From Thalassolituus maritimus (GTDB taxonomy: Bacteria; Pseudomonadota; Gammaproteobacteria; Pseudomonadales; Oceanobacteraceae), in NCBI GenBank assembly GCA_913019975.1, contig CAJWBH010000001.1:310001-374000 (forward strand): 64,000 nucleotides of DNA, given 5' to 3'. The first letter of the stretch is position 1; each line of letters begins with the position of its first letter. Under the pieces are notes generated by a model, which was given only the letters and a program-made list of their open reading frames with translations, had not been told where the DNA came from and ran no database searches. Positions 29,052 to 42,107 of this stretch are shown here, in pieces. The translations under genes were made by a program, and so were the position numbers.

Positions 29052-29080
29052 GACCTGTGCGTGAGCCGGTCGGTGTTGGT

Positions 29081-29114
29081 TGTGGGAGCGAATCAGCCGA
29101 AGGCTATTCGCGAA
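29081..29114 (+). repeat. REP-like element, copy 1
   Basis: 34 bp: constant TGTGGGAG, then hairpin arms GCGAAT-C-AGCC / GGCT-ATTCGC, then CGAA. Same layout and same orientation as the three copies at 30520-30653, and similar to Pseudomonas REP sequences. Confidence 0.75.
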
Positions 29115-29135
29115 CGAACCCCATACTTCTGCACA

Positions 29136-30544: not shown

Positions 30545-30564
30545 CCATGTTTGATATCCGATTC

Positions 30565-30604
30565 TGTAGGAGCGCTTCAGCCAGCTTGCCTGGCTATGCG
30601 CGAA
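30565..30604 (+). repeat. REP-like element, copy 3
   Basis: 40 bp: TGTAGGAG, stem AGCCAG / CTGGCT with a 5-nt loop inside a GCG...CGC clamp, then CGAA. Confidence 0.7.
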
Positions 30605-30619
30605 GGTCACTATGCCGAT

Positions 30620-30653
30620 TGTGGGAGTGAATCAGCCGAAGGCTATTCGCGAA
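30620..30653 (+). repeat. REP-like element, copy 4
   Basis: 34 bp, differing from copy 1 at one position (TGTGGGAGT instead of TGTGGGAGC). The three neighbouring copies fill most of the 226-bp gap before the LysM gene. Confidence 0.75.
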
Positions 30654-30707
30654 AATACCCATGTAAGGTATAGTTTGGCCAAACTTATCGAACAAAAGGA
30701 TTTGTAA

Positions 30708-31691
30708 GTGTCCGTAGCGCAGCAACCAATTCAATATCTCGAATACCGGGTAAAACCGGGCGATACACTTTCATTTATCCTTTCTCAGTTTTACGACGTT
30801 GGTTTTGGTTCCAGCGAATATAAACGACGTGCCGCGGGTATCATGGAACTAAACCCTCACATCTCGAACCCTGATCGAATAACCGCTGGAGATTTACTTG
30901 TTCTGGAAGCGTCTACTGGGTCGCAGATGTGTCTTGCTCCTCAAGGGAGCCAGCCAAAACTGTTTAAAGCTCCCGCTCCACAGATTTTAAGTTCAGTCCC
31001 TCGTGACAGTGATTCAGATTTTTATGCTTTGAGCTGGTTGGCAAGTAACGCGAATTACTTGACCCTCCCTGGGAGTGTGGCACTTGGAGGTCAAGGTAAC
31101 TTGCTGAGTGGTGGTAACTTAGGCCTGATCGACAAAGTCAGTGAGCTTTATGCTGACTATAAATCCGGAAAACTTACAAAGAACCAGTATGACTATCAGC
31201 GCAGGCTGACCCTTGATCAGTTTCGCAAAAACATCGGCCCATTTGAGAAATTACTTTACGGCGAGAAAACTCCTCATGAGGTAGTTCGTATCGCCCGAGG
31301 CGGCGGAGTTCCCGCAACTGCGAATATTACAGCGAACACGCAGCAGCTGAAGAAGCTTGCGGCGATGGCGAAACATGGCGGGATCGTACTGACAGGCGTT
31401 GGTGTGGCTGCTTCTTGTGTTCAGATAGCGGATGCGGATAGCAGTAAAAAGAAGAATGAGATATTTATTGAAACTCTTGCAAGCACGACCATCGGTGCCG
31501 CGGGAAGTTATGCTGTAGGTTTGTTTTTGATATCAAATCCAGTGGGGTGGGGGACAGCTATTGTCTTGGCTGCAGGTACAGTTGCAGCGGGTTACTTAGC
31601 TGGGAAAGGCGCAAGAGCAGCTTATGATCTTACAGGGGCAAAGGTAGATTTTGTCTCGGGCACAGGGGTTGGTTCGATATGTCGCAGGTGA
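30708..31691 (+). CDS. LysM protein with hydrophobic C-terminus, effector-like
   Basis: 327 residues, GTG start behind AAAAGGA. No signal peptide. A LysM domain fills about 11-66 (YRVKPGDTLSFILSQFY ... LNPHISNPDRITAGDLLVL). After a linker and a charged helical segment, residues about 225-305 hold two or three hydrophobic, glycine-rich helices (GIVLTGVGVAAS; GAAGSYAVGLFLI; GTAIVLAAGTVAAGYLAGKG). A peptidoglycan-binding head and membrane-inserting tail, with an overlapping membrane-protein gene, looks like a contact-delivered pore-forming toxin with its immunity protein. No secretion genes are visible here, so this is inference. Confidence 0.7.
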   Translation: MSVAQQPIQYLEYRVKPGDTLSFILSQFYDVGFGSSEYKRRAAGIMELNPHISNPDRITAGDLLVLEASTGSQMCLAPQGSQPKLFKAPAPQILSSVPRDSDSDFYALSWLASNANYLTLPGSVALGGQGNLLSGGNLGLIDKVSELYADYKSGKLTKNQYDYQRRLTLDQFRKNIGPFEKLLYGEKTPHEVVRIARGGGVPATANITANTQQLKKLAAMAKHGGIVLTGVGVAASCVQIADADSSKKKNEIFIETLASTTIGAAGSYAVGLFLISNPVGWGTAIVLAAGTVAAGYLAGKGARAAYDLTGAKVDFVSGTGVGSICRR

Positions 31692-32074
31692 TGATGGAGC
31701 AAGCTTTCCTTCTTATGATGTACTCGTTTGCAGCATTCTGGATATGGACAATGATATCGGTCGGCTTCCTGCTAGCTACGCCGAAGGCCTTTCTGGAAAA
31801 ATACTTTTGCCCGCCATATTTTCGCTCGGCAGAAGTCATCATTTTTTCAGCTTTTCCTTCAAACTTGATCCGTAACGTAATGTTTATTCGTTTGATTGCT
31901 TCGCCGTCATCCGGGAAAGTGCGTGGCCTGAGCGAAGCATATCGAGACGTTCCCTCGTGGCTAATAGCCTATGCCAAATTTCTGTACATCAGTCTTATCC
32001 TGGTACTGATCTGGATGTTTGGCATGTTGGCCTTTTGGGGCTGCTATATTGCATACGACCATTGGCTTGCCTGA
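31679..32074 (+). CDS. Small membrane protein, putative immunity partner
   Basis: 131 residues with about three transmembrane helices (about 9-32, 55-72 and 92-127) and a short polar loop. The gene overlaps the LysM gene by 13 bp, so both are made together. An integral membrane protein paired with a hydrophobic toxin-like protein is the usual form of immunity to pore formers. No family recognised. Confidence 0.6.
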   Translation: MSQVMMEQAFLLMMYSFAAFWIWTMISVGFLLATPKAFLEKYFCPPYFRSAEVIIFSAFPSNLIRNVMFIRLIASPSSGKVRGLSEAYRDVPSWLIAYAKFLYISLILVLIWMFGMLAFWGCYIAYDHWLA

Positions 32075-32169: not shown

Positions 32170-33096
32170 ATGCCAATCCCAGATTATCAAACCCTGATGC
32201 GCCCTGTGTTAGTTACGCTCGATTCCTGCGGCGATATGTCATTGCGCCAGCTTGTCGACTTGTTGAGTGACCAATACCAGCTCACCGATGAAGAACGCCG
32301 CCGCATGACCCCCAGCAAACGCAGCCCGCTGATGTACAACCGCGTTGCCTGGGCGACCACCTATCTACGAAAAGCAGGCCTCATAGAAAGCCCAACCAGA
32401 GGGATGAACAACATCACCTCTCGCGGAAAACAGGCACTGATCCAGACTGACACACCCATTGATCGTAAATACCTTATGCAGTTTGAGCAGTTTCAAGACT
32501 TCCAATCTGTAAATCGATCCGATGATGCTGGCCCGCAGAACGAACTGAACTCAGTACAAGTGCAACCAGAAGCTCTCGATCCCACCGAGCGCCTGGAAGA
32601 AGCTCACCAGGAACTGCAAGCAACACTAGCCGATGATCTACTCGCACAAGTAAAACGCCAGACACCCGAGTTCTTCGAAAAGCTCGTCGTCGAGCTCATG
32701 CTCGCCATGGGATATGGCGGCTGGAGCGAGAAAGCAGGGCAGGCGACCCAATACACCAACGATGGCGGCGTCGATGGCGTCATCAACGAAGACCCATTAG
32801 GCCTCGATACCATCTACCTGCAAGCCAAACGCTACACCGAGAACTCTGTCGGTCGCCCTGACATACAGGCCTTTGTCGGAGCGTTAGAAATGAAGCGTGC
32901 CAGAAAGGGCGTATTCATCACCACAAGCCGCTTCAGCCGTGATGCCATTGAATACGTCAATATGATCGAAAAGCGGGTAGTGCTGATTGATGGCGTGCAG
33001 CTGGCCGAGTTGATGATCCGCCACAATCTGGGCGTTACCGTTAAAGAAACCTATCAGGTAAAATCGCTGGATTCAGATTACTTTGCTGAAGGCTGA
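32170..33096 (+). CDS. mrr: Mrr-type restriction endonuclease
   Basis: 308 residues. N-terminal Mrr winged-helix (about 1-105) with YNRVAWATTYLRKAGLIE, a linker, then a PD-(D/E)xK nuclease at about 160-290: TNDGGVDGVI supplies the Asp, and TIYLQAKRY the Gln-x-Lys. Mrr cleaves methylated DNA and can be triggered by foreign methylases. It precedes hsdM by 150 bp on the same strand, an arrangement also seen in the E. coli immigration control region (mrr-hsd). Confidence 0.9.
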   Translation: MPIPDYQTLMRPVLVTLDSCGDMSLRQLVDLLSDQYQLTDEERRRMTPSKRSPLMYNRVAWATTYLRKAGLIESPTRGMNNITSRGKQALIQTDTPIDRKYLMQFEQFQDFQSVNRSDDAGPQNELNSVQVQPEALDPTERLEEAHQELQATLADDLLAQVKRQTPEFFEKLVVELMLAMGYGGWSEKAGQATQYTNDGGVDGVINEDPLGLDTIYLQAKRYTENSVGRPDIQAFVGALEMKRARKGVFITTSRFSRDAIEYVNMIEKRVVLIDGVQLAELMIRHNLGVTVKETYQVKSLDSDYFAEG

Positions 33097-33244: not shown

Positions 33245-34831
33245 ATGACAAGTTCCCAAACCAACTCAAGTCAGCAACGCGCCGCCCTGCAACGCCAGAT
33301 CTGGGCGATTGCCAATGATGTACGAGGCTCAGTGGATGGTTGGGACTTCAAGCAGTACGTACTGGGCACCCTGTTTTATCGCTTTATCAGCGAAAACTTT
33401 GCTGCCTACATTGAGGCCGGTGACGAAAGCATTCACTACGCCGAACTGCCCGACAGCGTCATCACCCCAGAGATCAAAGAAGACGCCATCAAAACCAAGG
33501 GTTACTTCATCTACCCCAGTCAATTGTTTGAAAACGTAGCGAAAAATGCCAACAACAATGAAAGCCTGAACACCGATTTAGCAACGATCTTCAGTGCTAT
33601 CGAAGCCTCAGGTTTTGGTTATCCGTCAGAGCAGGACATCAAAGGCCTGTTCGCTGACTTCGATACCACCAGCAACCGCCTCGGTAATACCGTCAAAGAC
33701 AAAAACCTGCGCTTAGCCGCCGTACTTAAGGGCGTTGCCGGGCTGAACTTCCATGGTGAATCGGGCGGGAAATTTGAAGATAACCACATCGACCTGTTCG
33801 GTGACGCCTACGAGTTTCTGATCTCTAACTACGCCGCGAATGCCGGTAAATCCGGTGGCGAGTTCTTTACTCCGCAGCATGTGTCCAAGCTCATCGCCAT
33901 GCTCGCGGTTCACGGCAAGGACAGCATCAACAAGATATTCGACCCCGCCTGTGGTTCGGGCTCACTGCTCATGCAAGCCAGAAAACACATCGACGTGCAC
34001 AAGATTGAAGAGGGTTACTTCGGCCAGGAGCTGAACCACACCACCTACAACCTGGCGCGTATGAATATGTTTCTGCACAACATTAACTACGACAAATTCA
34101 ATATCCAGCTGGGCAACACGCTGACCGAACCCCACTTCGGTGACGACAAACCCTTCGACGCCATCGTTTCTAACCCGCCGTACTCCGTAAAATGGATTGG
34201 CAGCGACGACCCGACCCTGATCAATGACGACCGCTTTGCCCCCGCCGGTGTGCTAGCGCCCAAATCCAAAGCCGACTTTGCTTTTGTGCTGCACGCGCTC
34301 AGTTACTTGTCGGGCAAGGGCAGGGCGGCGATTGTCTGCTTCCCCGGTATTTTTTATCGTGGCGGTGCTGAGCAGAAAATCCGCAAATATCTGGTCGATA
34401 ACAACAACGTTGAGACGGTCATTTCACTGGCCCCTAATCTGTTCTACGGCACCACCATCGCCGTCAATATTCTTGTGCTGGCGAAAAACAAACCCAACAC
34501 CGATATCCAGTTCATTGACGCAAGTAACCTGTTTAAAAAAGAAACCAACAACAACATCCTCACCGACGACCATATCCAGAAGATCATGGCAGTGTTCGCG
34601 AGCAAAGAGAACATCGACCACTTTGCCCGCTCCGTGCCTGTGGAGGAGGTGGCCGAAAACGACTACAACCTGTCGGTCAGCTCCTATGTGGAAGCCGAAG
34701 ACACCCGCGAGGTGGTGGACATCACACAGCTGAATGCCGAACTGAAAACCACGGTAGCGAAGATCACTCAGCTGCGCAGCGAGATTGATGCGATAGTGGC
34801 GCAAATCGAAGGTGAAGGAACTGAGGCATGA
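33245..34831 (+). CDS. hsdM: Type I DNA methyltransferase subunit HsdM (type IC-like)
   Basis: 528 residues. An N-terminal helical domain ([21 protein letters not shown], start of it) then an N6-adenine methylase core with motif [12 protein letters not shown] (about 232) and motif IV NPPYS (about 310). Length matches the type IC subunits such as EcoR124I. Modifies the host sites and, with HsdS and HsdR, forms the restriction complex. Its stop overlaps hsdS (ATGA). Confidence 0.95.
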
Positions 34832-36096
34832 GTCAGCCGGATATGTCAGGGTATATGGAAAAGCTACTGGATGGGGTTGAGGTTGAGTGGAAAGCTTTAG
34901 GAGAAGTGTGCGACTTCAAAAATGGATTCGCGTTTAAGAGTAGCCTGTTTAAAGAAGCTGGCTTACCGATTGTTAGAATTACTAATGTGGATGGAAAAAA
35001 TATTTCCTTAGCCGATGTAAAGTATTTTGATCCGTCGGACTATAAGGAAAATACAGCGTCTTATGAAGTTAGCAAAGGCGATATTTTGATTGCCATGTCT
35101 GGAGCGACGACTGGGAAAATTGGCTTTTACGCTCATGAAAATCCCGCCTACCTGAATCAACGAGTAGGAAAATTTTTACCCAAACCGAAAATTCTCAACA
35201 ATCGATATTTATATCACTATCTTCTTTCGAAAGTTGAGCAGATTTATGTAGTTGCGGGCGGCGGTGCGCAGCCCAATCTTAGTTCAAATGCACTAATGGC
35301 AAAGATTAAAATCCCCATCCCCTGCCCAGACAGCCCTGAAAAATCCCTCGAAATTCAGGCCGAAATCGTCCGTATTCTGGACGCATTTACCGCCATGACC
35401 GCCGAGCTGACCGCCGAGCTTAACCTGCGCAAGCAACAATACAACTACTATCGTGATCAGTTGTTGAGGTTTGAAGAAGGGGAAGTGGGGTGGAAGAATC
35501 TAGAAGATGTTGCTTCATTTAGGCGTGGCTCATTCCCCCAGCCCTATGGAAATAGTGAATGGTATGACGGAGAAGGCTGCATGCCCTTCGTTCAGGTTGC
35601 GGATGTTGCTGATTTTGGCTTTCGGCTTCACCAAAAGACGAAGCAGCAGATTTCAAGGCTTGCACAGCCTAAAAGTGTATTCGTTGAAAAAGATACTGTT
35701 ATTGTTTCGCTACAAGGTACGATTGGGCGTGTTGCCATTACTCAATATGACTGTTACGTGGATAGAACCCTTGCAATATTCACTAATTACAAAGTAGACA
35801 TAAATAAGAAATATTTTGCTCATCAACTAAAAGCCAAATTCGATCTGGAAAAAGAGTTTGCCAGAGGAAGTACGTTGAAAACTATCACAAAGGAGGAGTT
35901 TTCAAAGTTCCAGATACCTATTCCACCTATTGAAGAACAGAATCGCATTGTCTCACTGTTGGATAAGTTCGATGTTTTGACCCATTCAATCAAGGAAGGC
36001 CTCCCCCGCGAAATCGAACTGCGTCAGAAGCAATACGAGTATTACCGCGATCTGCTGCTGAGCTTCCCAAGGCCGAAAGAAGAGGCTGTGGCATGA
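34828..36096 (+). CDS. hsdS: Type I specificity subunit HsdS with two TAEL repeats
   Basis: 422 residues: two target-recognition domains (about 18-170 and 215-375), each followed by a conserved helical spacer. The spacers repeat each other: [14 protein letters not shown] and [14 protein letters not shown]. The central spacer begins TAELTAEL (residues 191-198), the element whose copy number sets the gap in the split recognition sequence of EcoR124-type enzymes. Two copies would predict a 6-bp gap. The recognition domains are visibly more A/T-rich than their flanks, consistent with domain swapping. Confidence 0.95.
35398..35421 (+). repeat. 12-bp tandem encoding TAEL x2 in hsdS
   Basis: ACCGCCGAGCTG followed directly by ACCGCCGAGCTT. 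The two units differ only in the last base. An in-frame tandem like this can gain or lose a unit by slippage or unequal crossing-over. Confidence 0.9.
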
Positions 36097-36097
36097 T

Positions 36098-37225
36098 ATG
36101 AGTAAGACACTGGATGATATCGCCTTAGAGATTTACGAGAATAGTAAAAAAGTAAAGCTTATCTATGCTTTCAACGGTAATGGGAAAACGCGCCTCTCCC
36201 GTGCCTTCAAAGAGCTGATCGCTCCGAAAAGTACCGATGATGAAAGCGTAGGCGTTGCAGATGTATCTCCAAGAAGTATTCTCTACTACAACGCTTTTAC
36301 AGAAGATTTGTTCTATTGGGATAACGACCTCGACAACGATGTTGCGCCAAGGTTGAGGATACAGCCAAATTCCTTTACTGAATGGGTGTTAGTGGACCAA
36401 GGACAAGACAGGAATATCGTTACCAATTTTCAGCGCTACGCCAACCAGAAATTAACGCCACACTTTAGTGAGGATTTTTCTGAAGTAACGTTCTCGATGG
36501 AGCGGGGGGATGATGAGAGCTCAGGCTATCTGAAAATCTCTAAAGGCGAAGAAAGTAATTTCATCTGGAGTGTGTTCCAGACCGTGATCGATCAGGTTAT
36601 AAGTATCCGTAATGTTGCAGAAGCAGACGAGCGAGAAACCGACCAATTTGATCAGTTGGAATATATCTTTATTGATGATCCAGTGAGCTCTCTGGATGAA
36701 AATCACTTGATTGAGCTTGCGGTCACCCTGGCAGAGCTTATTAAGTCAAGTGAATCAGACCAACTTAAGTTTATCATCACAACGCATAATCCATTGTTCT
36801 ATAACGTTCTGCATAATGAGCTTAAAAGTAAGGCATGTTATTTATTAGAGCGTTATGAAGATGGGACTTTTGATCTGATTGAGAAGCAGGGTGATTCCAA
36901 TAAGAGCTTCTCTTACCATCTTCATCTGAAACTCACTCTTGAAAAGGCCATCGCAGATAATTCTATACAGAAGTACCACTTTACACTGTTGCGTAACCTT
37001 TATGAGAAGACGGCTAATTTTTTGGGCTATGACAGGTGGTCGGATCTTCTAGATACCGTTCCTGGTGATAAGTCGGGGTACTTAAACCGTATTATTCAAT
37101 TCAGTAGTCATCGTACATTGTCGAATGAGGAGGTTCTGCAGCCCACAGAGCCTGAGAAACAGATGGTCAGATTATTGCTGGAGAACCTGAATAACTACGG
37201 ATTTTTACAGCAGGAGGCTCCATGA
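36098..37225 (+). CDS. prrC: PrrC-like anticodon nuclease guarding the type I system
   Basis: 375 residues (E. coli PrrC is 396). An ABC-type ATPase fills about 1-265: Walker A NGNGKT (26-31), signature SKGEE (149-152 region), Walker B YIFIDD with D-loop SSLD (190-200), and the H-loop ITTHN. The C-terminal 85 residues contain Arg299-X3-Glu303 (LLRNLYEKT) and His338 (FSSHRT), matching the R320/E324/H356 triad of PrrC in both order and spacing. It starts 1 bp after hsdS and overlaps hsdR by 4 bp, giving hsdM-hsdS-prrC-hsdR, the exact prr order. PrrC is held silent by the restriction enzyme and cuts a tRNA anticodon loop when a phage inhibits it. The tRNA target here is unknown. Confidence 0.75.
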
Positions 37226-40200
37226 CCGAATACAAAACCATCGCCGAATCCAATAACTTTATTGTCTTGGACCGATACAACAAAGACTGGGGCGTGGCGG
37301 AGAGCTATCAGAGCGAAGGCGATCTGGAACGTGAGCTGATTCGGGATCTGGTGAGTCAGGGTTATGAGTATCTGCCGGGCTTAAACAACCCCATTGCCAT
37401 GCTGGCCAATGTGCGTGAACAGTTGCAACGCCTGAACAATGTTGAGTTTCAGGAAGGTGAATGGCAGCGCTTTGTTGAGACCTATCTCGATAAACCCAGT
37501 GACAATGTCGTTGATAAGACCCGCAAGATTCACGATGACTATATTCACGATTTTGTCTTTGATGATGGGCGTATCAAGAACGTCTACCTCGTCGACAAAA
37601 AACAGATTGCCCGTAACAAAGTTCAGGTGATTAAGCAGTTTGAACAGTCGGGTAGTCATGCCAACCGCTATGATGTCACTATTCTGGTGAATGGTTTACC
37701 GCTGGTGCAGATCGAGCTGAAAAAGCGCGGCGTTGCCATTCGTGAGGCGTTTAATCAGGTTCACCGTTACAGTAAAGAGAGCTTTAACAGCGAGCATTCA
37801 CTGTACAAATATCTGCAGTTGTTCGTGATCTCTAACGGCACTGATACGCGATATTTTGCCAACACCACGAAGCGCAACAAAAACAGCTTTGACTTCACCA
37901 TGAACTGGGCGAAGGCCGACAACACCCTGATTAAAGACTTGAAAGACTTCACCGCGACCTTCCTGCAGAAGCACACGTTAGTCAATGTGCTGCTACAATA
38001 CTCGGTGTTTGATGTCAGCGATACCTTGCTGGTTATGCGCCCATACCAGATTGCCGCGACTGAGCGCATTTTGTGGAAGATCAAATGTGCGTACGAATCA
38101 AAAAACTGGACCGGCCCTAAAGAAGGCATGATGCCAGAGAATGGCGGCTATATCTGGCACACCACAGGTTCGGGTAAAACCTTAACCAGCTTTAAAGCAG
38201 CGCGGCTGGCTACGGAGCTGGAGTTTATTGATAAGGTGTTCTTCGTCGTTGACCGGAAAGATCTGGATTACCAGACCATGAAGGAGTATCAGCGCTTTTC
38301 GCCAGACAGTGTGAACGGCTCTGACAGCACGGCGGGTTTAAAACAGAACCTGAGTAAAGACGACAACAAGATCATCGTCACCACCATTCAGAAGCTCAAC
38401 AACCTGATGAAGAGCGAAGGTGACCTGCCGGTGTACAACCAGCAGGTAGTGTTTATCTTTGATGAATGCCATCGCAGCCAGTTCGGTGAAGCCCAGAAAA
38501 ACCTGAAGAAGAAGTTCAAGCGTTTCTACCAGTTTGGTTTTACCGGCACGCCGATCTTTGCTGGCAAAAATGCATTGGGCGATCAGGACACCCAAAGCGT
38601 ATTCGGGCGTGAGCTGCATTCGTATGTGATCACTGATGCCATACGCGATGAGAAAGTCCTCAAGTTCAAGGTCGATTACAACGACGTACGCCCACAATTC
38701 AAACAGCTTGAAACTGAACAGGACGAGAAGAAGCTGAGTGCGTTAGAGGACAAGCAGGCGTTACTGCACCCGGAACGTATTCGTGAAATTTCGCAGTATA
38801 TTCTCAATAACTTCCGCCAGAAAACACACCGCATGAAAGCGGGAGGAGCAGGCTTTAACGCCATGTTTGCGGTCAGTAGTGTGGATGCCGCCAAACTGTA
38901 TTACGAGACGCTTAACCAGCTTCAGAATGAGCCTTCTTATAAAGACAGAAGTAAACCGCTCAAGATCGCCACTATATTCTCGTTTGCCGCCAACGAAGAG
39001 CAGGACGCGATAGGCGATATTGTGGATGAGAGTTTCGATGTGTCAGCAATGAACTCCAGTGCCAAGGAGTTTTTGACTAAAGCCATCGCTGACTATAACG
39101 CCTTCTTCTGCTCGAACTACAGCGTCGATAGCAAGGGTTTTCAGAATTATTACCGTGATCTGGCGAAGCGGGTAAAGAGCAAAGAAGTCGACCTGTTGAT
39201 TGTGGTGGGGATGTTCCTCACCGGCTTTGATGCGCCGACCCTCAATACCTTGTTTGTTGATAAGAATCTGCGTTATCACGGCCTGATGCAGGCGTACTCG
39301 CGCACTAACCGTATTTATGATGCCACTAAGACCTTTGGCAATATCGTTACCTTCCGTGATTTAGAGCAGGCTACGGTCGATGCCATTACCCTGTTTGGTG
39401 ATAAAAACACCAGAAACGTGGTTCTGGAGAAGAGCTATAAGGAATACCTCGAAGGCTTCACTGATGTGGTTACCGGTGAGGCGAAGCGTGGCTTTATGAC
39501 GGTAGTCAGTGAGCTGGAGCAGCGCTTCCCTGATCCGGCAAATATTGACAAAGAGTCTGACAAAAAAGCCTTTGCCAAACTCTTCGGTGAGTATCTGCGA
39601 GTTGAAAATATCCTGCAGAACTACGATGAATTCGCCAGCCTGAAAGCCTTGCAGAACATCGACATGAGCGATCCGGATGCGGTTGAGGCCTTCAAAACTG
39701 AGCATTATCTGGACGATGACAAGCTCGCCGAACTGCAGAGTATTCGTCTGCCCGCGGACCGTAAAATTCAGGATTATCGTTCAAGTTACAACGATATCCG
39801 CGACTGGCAGCGGCGCCAGAAATCGGCAGAAGTACAAGAGAAATCTACCATCGACTGGGATGATGTAGTATTTGAGGTCGACCTGCTTAAATCGCAGGAG
39901 ATAAACCTCGACTACATTCTTGAGCTGATCTTCGAACACAACAAGAAGAACAAGAGTAAGTCTGACCTCGTGGACGAAGTTCGCCGAGTGATCCGAGGCA
40001 GCCTCGGCAACCGCGCCAAAGAGAGTCTGGTGGTCGATTTCATCAACCAGACAGATCTGGATGAGATCGGCGATAAGGCCACCGTCATCGATACCTTCTT
40101 TGCCTTTGCGCAAGCCGAACAGCAGCGCGAAGCTGAAGAGCTGATTGAAACCGAGAACCTCAACGCCGAAGAGGCTCGCCGCTACATCATCAGCTCGCTT

Positions 40201-40365
40201 AAGCGCGAGTACGCCAGCGACGCGGGCACAGAGCTGAACTCTGTTCTGCCTAAGATGAGCCCGTTAAACCCGCAGTACCACACCAAAAAGCAGACGGTGT
40301 TCCAGAAGATCGCTGCGTTCGTTGAGAAGTTTAAAGGGGTAGGTGGGAGTATCAGTAAAGACTGA
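37222..40365 (+). CDS. hsdR: Type I restriction subunit HsdR
   Basis: 1047 residues, as in type IC enzymes. The N-terminal PD-(D/E)xK nuclease shows [10 protein letters not shown] then IELKKRG (about 150-172); the SF2 translocase has TGSGKTLTS (about 315), DECHRSQFG (about 413) and the later [10 protein letters not shown] and QAYSRTNR motifs; the C-terminal helical domain binds HsdM. ATG overlaps the upstream stop and follows CAGGAGG. All catalytic motifs look intact, so the system is probably active. Confidence 0.96.
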
Positions 40366-40476
40366 TGTAGCAACCAAGTGTGATTCAGTACGAGTAGCTG
40401 TTAAAGTAACATGCGTGTTGCAAGGCTGGGAAGGAACCCAAGGTCAGTTTATAATTTGACCAATCCAGGAGGACAT

Positions 40477-41616
40477 ATGACTCAGGCCATGATTAACCCC
40501 GAAATGCTTAGCTGGGCGCGTGAACGCGCAGGCTTTGCCGTGCCTGAATTCGCGAGAAAGATGGGCAAAACGCCCGAATGGCTGCAGGAATGGGAGTCCG
40601 GTTCTCGTCCGCTGACGTTCCATCAGGCTACCCAATACGCCGAAAAAGCCTACATCCCGCTCGGATACCTGTTTCTCAGGCAGCCACCTGAAGAAACGTT
40701 GCCAATTCCCGATCTGCGAACCATCGAAAACGGCGAAGTACGCCGTCCCAGTGCTGAACTTCTGGACGTAGTGAAGCAAATGCAGGAAAGACAGGAGTGG
40801 TACAAGGATTACCTGTTTGAGAACGGCGGCGAAGAGTGCCGGGTCGTTGGGCGTTGTAAGGGGAGCGACAGCGTCGATGTTATTGTTGCCGACATGCGCC
40901 AGACCATGGCCATACCTCCACACCCTACGCGCGGCACTTGGGAAGATTATTATCGTGGTTTGGTGAAGCAGGTTGAGTCTCTGGGAATTCTGGTTATGCG
41001 CTTACCACACCTTGGTAGCCATCATCGGCGTTTTAAGGTTGAAGAATTTCGTGGCTTCGCGATGGTCGACAAAATTGCTCCCCTCATTTTTGTAAATCAT
41101 GCCGACGCGCCGGGAGCGCGACTATTTACTCTTATCCATGAGCTTTGCCATGTCTGGCTTGGTGAATCTGGGGTGTCTGACGGCGATGCGAATACGCATA
41201 ATCGTATTGAAGTACTGTGCAACGCTGTTGCAGCGGAATTTTTGGTTCCCGAAGAAGAGTTCAGGCAGATCTGGGATCGGGAAGTGGAATACTGGCAAGA
41301 AAACCTGAAGCCACTCGAAGCCCACTTTCACGTCAGCACCTGGGCATTGGCGCGACGAGCGATGACGCTGGGGTTTATTACTAAACCTGATTACCTGAAA
41401 TACATTGCGGCAGAGAAAAAAGCACATGAAGACCGCGAGCGCGAAGGTGGCGGTGGAGGCTATTACAAGAATCAGAAATCCTGGCTGAGTGATCGCTTTA
41501 GCTTTGCTGTTTCTTCTCAGGCATTAAATGGACAGATTATGCTTAGAGAGGCTGGGCATTTATTGGGAGTGAACCCTGCTAATCTTATTAAGTTTGCAAA
41601 GGAGATCGGTGTTTGA
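40477..41616 (+). CDS. XRE-ImmA/IrrE metalloprotease regulator, antitoxin-like
   Basis: 379 residues from ATG 40477, which has a consensus AGGAGG; the longer frame adds 22 doubtful residues. A helix-turn-helix of the XRE type (about 8-65, FARKMGKTPEWLQEWESG) is followed by an IrrE/ImmA zinc peptidase domain with HELCH (221-225). A Gly-rich stretch (GGGGG) separates a C-terminal helix. The pair with the DUF4411 gene downstream is a recurring toxin-antitoxin-like arrangement. It begins 110 bp after hsdR. Confidence 0.85.
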   Translation: MTQAMINPEMLSWARERAGFAVPEFARKMGKTPEWLQEWESGSRPLTFHQATQYAEKAYIPLGYLFLRQPPEETLPIPDLRTIENGEVRRPSAELLDVVKQMQERQEWYKDYLFENGGEECRVVGRCKGSDSVDVIVADMRQTMAIPPHPTRGTWEDYYRGLVKQVESLGILVMRLPHLGSHHRRFKVEEFRGFAMVDKIAPLIFVNHADAPGARLFTLIHELCHVWLGESGVSDGDANTHNRIEVLCNAVAAEFLVPEEEFRQIWDREVEYWQENLKPLEAHFHVSTWALARRAMTLGFITKPDYLKYIAAEKKAHEDREREGGGGGYYKNQKSWLSDRFSFAVSSQALNGQIMLREAGHLLGVNPANLIKFAKEIGV

Positions 41617-42107
41617 AGTATTTAATGGATGCAAATACTTATATTGAAGCAAAGAACAAATATTATGGAATGGACTTCTGCCCCGGTTACTGGGATTGGC
41701 TCATTGATCAGTTCGCCATGGGTAATGTGGCCAGTATTGACTTTGTTGGTAAAGAGCTTGAGAAAGGCAATGATAAACTTAGGGAATGGTGTCGCTCTCA
41801 TCGGGATCATTTCATTGAGTCAAACGACCTCGATACTCAGGCGGAGTATTATGAAGTCGTCAACTTTGTGATGGGCGGGAAGTATAACCCCGGTAATCGT
41901 GATGGTTTTCTCAAAGGGGCTGACCCTTGGTTGATTGCCAAGTCCAAATCAATCGGGGCTGTTTTAGTGACACATGAGGCAAGAAAGGCACCGGCAGATA
42001 CCAAAAAAGTAAAGATACCGAATATCTGCGATGCATTAGGTGTGCAGTGTATCTCGACATTTGAGCTGCTTCGTACTTTGGAAGCGCGGTTTTGCAAATC
42101 TACATGA
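41613..42107 (+). CDS. DUF4411 PIN-like nuclease, toxin-like
   Basis: 164 residues. Begins at TTG overlapping the upstream stop (TTGA) with GGAG eight bases ahead; ATG 41625 is the alternative. LMDANTYIEAKN supplies the first PIN acidic residue, GADPWLIAKSK the second region, and VTHEARK follows, as in DUF4411. PIN domains are metal-dependent RNases. With the XRE-ImmA partner it probably forms a toxin-antitoxin module (inference). Confidence 0.82.
   Translation: MKYLMDANTYIEAKNKYYGMDFCPGYWDWLIDQFAMGNVASIDFVGKELEKGNDKLREWCRSHRDHFIESNDLDTQAEYYEVVNFVMGGKYNPGNRDGFLKGADPWLIAKSKSIGAVLVTHEARKAPADTKKVKIPNICDALGVQCISTFELLRTLEARFCKST

Follow-up and report, generated by a model that had tools for sequence, protein, structure and literature searches.

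A predicted prr-type locus with a PrrC anticodon nuclease in Thalassolituus maritimus

The genes hsdM-hsdS-prrC-hsdR of Thalassolituus maritimus very probably make up a prr-type guard locus, in which a type IC restriction-modification (R-M) enzyme would keep the anticodon nuclease PrrC silent and a block of that enzyme would free PrrC to cut tRNA-Lys(UUU). If so, it is an unexceptional but clear case of restriction backed by a tRNA-cutting fail-safe. It lies in a stretch of 64,000 nucleotides that was analysed as a whole and is called the window here. A sequence-only reading had placed an operon of hsdM, hsdS, a third gene and hsdR at 33245-40365; the open frames were found at exactly those positions, all four on the plus strand (Table 1). 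The gene order is, as that reading had it, the order of the E. coli prr locus as described in PMC3014915. Besides gene order, the locus has the tight junctions between prrC and its neighbours, the ABC motifs, the triad and the position of Asp287 in common with E. coli PrrC and EcoprrI (prrABCD).

Table 1. Genes of the predicted prr-type locus and sequence features of PrrC, with positions in the window
Feature	Position	Strand	Description
hsdM (prrA-like)	33245..34831	+	528 aa, N6-adenine methylase; TIGR00497 654.7 bits, PF02384 4.5e-122, NPPY at residue 310
hsdS (prrB-like)	34828..36096	+	422 aa, specificity subunit, two target-recognition stretches; PF01420 twice, PADLOC Specificity_I 413.9 bits
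prrC	36098..37225	+	375 aa, ABC-ATPase and C-terminal anticodon-nuclease (HEPN-type) domain; PADLOC PrrC 9.4e-141, 64.9% identical to the 396-aa anticodon nuclease of E. coli
hsdR (prrD-like)	37222..40365	+	1047 aa, type IC-like motor/nuclease subunit; TIGR00348 669.1 bits, EcoR124_C PF12008 2.3e-69, GSGKT at 316, DECH at 414
Walker A, FNGNGKT, residues 25-31	36170..36190	+	F25, N26, G29, K30 and T31 invariant in 44 rows
ABC signature region SKGEE, residues 148-152	36539..36553	+	S148 and E151 invariant in 44 rows
Walker B / D-loop, residues 189-200	36662..36697	+	D200 aligned with E. coli D222
tRNA-Lys recognition stretch, residues 263-274	36884..36919	+	D266 aligned with E. coli Asp287
Triad residues R299 and E303	36992..37006	+	R and E in 89/89 rows
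R331-X6-H338, triad His and HEPN-type R-X4-6-H motif	37088..37111	+	H in 89/89 rows, R331 in 85/89

The R-M genes look intact, judging from the NPPY motif of HsdM and the GSGKT and DECH motifs of HsdR. HsdR carries the C-terminal domain of EcoR124, which points to a type IC enzyme, and prrC is located between hsdS and hsdR of this operon. Since HsdS is just 37% identical to the HsdS of the E. coli locus L082, the recognition sequence of the T. maritimus enzyme probably differs from that of E. coli.

Judged by homology, the 375-aa product of the third gene is PrrC, a well preserved member of the known EcoprrI/PrrC guard kind. The PADLOC PrrC model PDLC02360 matches residues 3-373 with 467.1 bits, and residues 1-373 align with a 396-aa E. 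coli homologue annotated as anticodon nuclease, which itself scores 489.5 bits. Between the C-terminal domains of the two proteins the identity is 69%, with R, E and H aligned. We equate the E. coli homologue with the original PrrC, which we take to be 396 aa long, by length, triad numbering, annotation and locus, not by accession. Its R, E and H stand at exactly 320, 324 and 356, and the published catalytic triad of PrrC is R320/E324/H356 (PMC2610378). The sequence-only reading had named R299, E303 and H338 as this triad; the residue numbers are correct in the translation, and the three residues align column for column with those of the E. coli protein. It had based the link to PrrC on spacing and context. 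The identity holds and is settled by full-length homology, to the PADLOC model and to the E. coli protein, whereas the spacing taken alone is weak evidence: when the last 111 residues were shuffled 20,000 times, a pattern R-X3-E-X31-52-H arose by chance in 12.7% of cases. The ABC ATPase core, also claimed there, is seen in motif residues that are invariant in an alignment of 44 rows.

Relative to the E. coli 396-aa homologue, the T. maritimus PrrC lacks a 16-residue insert after residue 17 and 3 residues near residue 98, and has 3 additional residues in the interval from E303 to H338; there are other small indels besides. A longer form of PrrC (433-439 aa), found in the E. coli loci L084 and L085 with PADLOC PrrC scores of 438.8 and 429.4 bits, has the same place in the operon and the same triad. 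It is 48% identical to the T. maritimus protein (blastp), from which it differs by additional segments and by divergence in the C-terminal domain. PrrC170 of Klebsiella quasipneumoniae, found with DefenseFinder, likewise lies within a type I R-M locus (PMC11555353). In that report PrrC170 acts with its R-M locus against T1 and T7, depletes tRNA-Lys and is 35% identical to EcoPrrC; we liken it to the T. maritimus PrrC by description.

Conservation of the C-terminal residues was counted in an alignment of 89 proteins, made up of the T. maritimus PrrC, the best 80 of 511 relatives in a collection scan, and the proteins of four E. coli and four same-family loci; locus L108, which is the same place as L086, supplies that row. 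Among these nearer relatives, to which the counts apply, the three triad columns are invariant, the column of E. coli D222 holds D in all 89 rows and that of Asp287 holds D in 87 of them. Asp287 of E. coli PrrC is reported to be in contact with the wobble base of tRNA-Lys (PMC3014915). The distance from the triad E to the H is 35 in the T. maritimus protein and 32 in E. coli; across 87 rows, with the T. maritimus protein included and L086 unscored, it is 32 in 75 and 35 in 7. R-X4-6-H is a motif of HEPN RNases, and PrrC has been placed in the HEPN superfamily (PMC3710099); residues R331-X6-H338 conform to the motif. The PADLOC model of the HEPN protein ApeA matched residues 267-338 weakly and not significantly (E 0.0046). 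A sequence search of solved structures gave no significant match among the three listed up to E 10, and no solved PrrC was found; the best was an antiviral protein of entry 9hxn (E 0.085, residues 269-338). The ApeA and 9hxn matches, though not significant, fall in the same stretch and fit the HEPN placement.

Pfam gives only AAA_13 above cut-off for the protein (57.4 bits), a family that carries no PrrC name and is uninformative on PrrC, and NCBIfam gives nothing specific. Such a result would also suit a nuclease of the RloC type, or some other defence ATPase of AAA_13, merely located in the hsd operon, and the sequence-only reading had itself allowed for a C-terminus from a different AAA_13 family; the C-terminus matches PrrC. 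The PADLOC scores argue against this, with the PrrC model ahead of every other by more than 400 bits; the other AAA_13-type models (PDC-S06) reach at most 48.2 bits and their best stretches end by residue 267. RloC has an ABC ATPase and an R-X3-E...H triad, as does the T. maritimus protein, and is set apart by its description in PMC2610378, where it carries a CXXC zinc hook in a coiled-coil insert, is rarely linked to R-M genes and has a spacing of X36-52 between E and H. The T. maritimus protein, in contrast, has 375 aa, lies within an R-M operon, shows the ABC ATPase motifs without a zinc-hook insert and has a spacing of X34; it contains a single cysteine, so there is no CXXC hook. We rejected RloC and the other AAA_13 families on the PADLOC scores and regard them as extremely unlikely. 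Only slightly more credit, which still leaves it very unlikely, is due to the idea that prrC is a decayed, non-functional copy kept by its linkage to hsd. This idea has no positive support; a fragmentary prrC match occurs in one other genome (L123), whereas the T. maritimus prrC is an open frame joined to its neighbours as tightly as in E. coli, and every motif residue examined is retained.

The host encodes at least two tRNA-Lys(UUU) genes (anticodon TTT; L091 and L092), found in a similarity search with the E. coli gene as query. The two are identical to each other and have the anticodon loop of E. coli. Four positions differ from the E. coli sequence, two of them in the pair closing the anticodon loop, which is G31-C39 in the host and A31-T39 in E. 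coli. A stable anticodon stem is reported to be inhibitory to E. coli PrrC (PMC3014915), and because of the G31-C39 pair the host tRNA-Lys could be a poorer PrrC substrate than that of E. coli. The change at 31/39 would be in line with a PrrC of the same family whose tRNA target has shifted while its C-terminal domain diversified, and so would the comparison with the longer form, from which the T. maritimus protein diverges most in the C-terminal third (43-46% identity, against 59-65% elsewhere). A shifted target is nevertheless unlikely: residues 263-274 show one difference only from residues 284-295 of E. coli PrrC, and a PrrC reported to be just 35% identical to EcoPrrC still depletes tRNA-Lys (PMC11555353).

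As a probable prr-type guard locus directed at tRNA-Lys(UUU), the T. maritimus genes should, by descent, work as E. coli prr does. In E. coli, PrrC is kept latent by its association with EcoprrI, and HsdR is precipitated by PrrC antiserum (PMC3014915). According to the same paper, type Ic enzymes, EcoR124I among them, are inhibited by Stp, which together with GTP, dTTP and unmodified DNA also activates PrrC. We suggest the following course for T. maritimus. HsdM, HsdS and HsdR, going by their family matches, would form a type IC R-M enzyme, on which PrrC would sit silenced as in E. coli. A phage inhibitor, for example an Stp-like peptide, would block the enzyme on unmodified DNA, and the ABC-type NTPase of PrrC would then change state. 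The C-terminal RNase domain would cut tRNA-Lys(UUU) next to the wobble base by means of R299, E303 and H338, and translation would stop in the infected cell, presumably to the benefit of the population. The latency, the trigger, the tRNA cutting and its site, and the population benefit are here inferred for the T. maritimus PrrC from E. coli.

A prr locus is found at the same site in a genome of the same genus (G030, locus L105). By blastp, HsdM, HsdR and the proteins of a neighbouring M78/DUF4411 gene pair are 96.2%, 96.6%, 96.1% and 95.6% identical between the two, respectively, whereas HsdS is 37.0% and PrrC 47.9% identical (45% and 57% over gap-free aligned columns). At the DNA level, identity is 90.6% up to 34907 and, resuming within the final codons of prrC, 93.2% from 37209; between 34908 and 37208 only a central stretch of hsdS, 35309-35497, stays close (92%). 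The segment 34908-37208 appears as a replacement of hsdS and prrC between genomes whose HsdM and HsdR are 96-97% identical.

Across 2701 locus pairs, from 74 loci with all four proteins, the Spearman correlation of identities is 0.55 for HsdM-HsdR, 0.27 for HsdR-PrrC, 0.26 for HsdR-HsdS and 0.16 for PrrC-HsdS; the pairs depend on one another, and the choice of most loci for similarity in PrrC restricts the span of PrrC identities and makes the PrrC correlations lower. In the 40 pairs whose HsdRs are most alike (92-99% identity), PrrC is 85-100% identical in 15 and 57-72% in 25, with none between. Close HsdR goes with distant PrrC in L009/L073 (HsdR 98, PrrC 64), L009/L106 (97, 58) and the E. 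coli pair L083/L084 (93, 57), and with close PrrC in L073/L074 (99, 100) and L009/L019 (95, 95). Many close HsdRs do retain a close PrrC, and because no PrrC identities fall between the two classes the gap looks like replacement, not steady drift. It is possible, if somewhat short of probable, that PrrC diversifies as an exchangeable cassette while the type IC chassis that carries it is conserved, as though phages select new versions of PrrC in the way they select new HsdS specificities. Near-identical HsdM and HsdR would then accept PrrCs that are about half identical, with the change concentrated in the tRNA-cutting third. Were this true, the docking of PrrC to HsdR should rest on a few surface residues common to the PrrC forms. 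The T. maritimus and G030 loci amount to a natural swap experiment, which limits the places at which PrrC can contact its silencing partner, and their comparison makes diversification of PrrC against phages testable. No title among those listed in literature searches reports exchange of PrrC on a fixed chassis.

We also sampled loci by HsdR, taking 19 loci from the 23 other genomes with an HsdR match; G122 and G049 (51-52% identity) and the partial G468 and G547 were left out, and the partial G611 and G668 were kept. A full or nearly full prrC match is present in 9 of the 19 loci and a fragment in 1; 7 are without a match, and the sequence of the other 2 is too short for a call. In E. coli, hsdR is matched over at least 80% of its length in 1232 of 5426 genomes, and prrC by blastn in at least 20 genomes, 6 of them over at least 80%, a search that detects the longer form poorly. 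Residues 1-95 of the HsdR of the prrC-linked E. coli locus L082 are 59-65% identical to those of eight prrC-less E. coli HsdRs, and residues 301-1040 are 89-100% identical. The N-terminus of HsdR was considered as a marker of prrC linkage or docking and rejected: L084, a locus with the longer PrrC, has an N-terminus of the prrC-less type, 90-97% identical to seven of the eight and 77% to L118. Furthermore, the HsdR N-termini of seven prrC-less loci of other genomes show median identities of 54-68% to those linked to prrC, which among themselves reach a median of only 68%. Compared with L111-L118, hsdR of L082 and L083 is a mosaic, in which the 5' end (codons 1 to about 90) is divergent and the remainder nearly identical. 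We read this mosaic as a putative recombination joint inside hsdR.

The arrangement with hsdM and hsdS upstream and hsdR downstream of prrC is found in 77 of 86 loci. Of the other nine, 5 are without hsdM, 2 without hsdR, 1 has hsdR only and L086 is unscored; in the 8 incomplete loci the sequence ends less than 1.5 kb from prrC on the missing side. The gap between prrC and hsdR exceeds 100 bp in 26 of the 83 loci with a downstream hsdR. Nine of these were inspected; in eight the gap contains an open frame, 281-411 codons long, and in L021 there is none. By eye, the frames resemble RhuM (L016, L022 and L070), YhcG (L010 and L080), Fic (L036), BRO-N (L011) and an AAA ATPase (L001). Neighbours of the RhuM and Fic/Doc kinds have been described for this group (PMC3710099). 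No extra gene lies between prrC and hsdR in the T. maritimus locus.

Within the family of the host, prrC was matched in 4 of 44 genomes, its own included. The region from about 30.5 to 43.5 kb of the window is a variable site, since its two flanks nearly adjoin, about 1 kb or less apart, in the same-genus genomes G028 and G029. Directly upstream of hsdM is a gene for an Mrr-type (type IV) restriction protein (32170-33096), 83.2% identical to the one at the same place in L105. Downstream of hsdR, a gene for an HTH and M78-peptidase protein overlaps a DUF4411 gene (40411-42107), a pair resembling a toxin-antitoxin system. The pair is probably independent of prr, because a stretch 68% identical to it is found elsewhere in G028. 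At 30708-32074 lie a gene for a LysM-domain protein and, after it, a small gene with no Pfam match, with a 30% identical relative on the other strand in L105; the two may encode a secreted effector and a partner protein. Short REP-like repeats at 29080-29125 and 30564-30662, close to the island's left edge, have many near-identical copies in this genome and in others of the genus.
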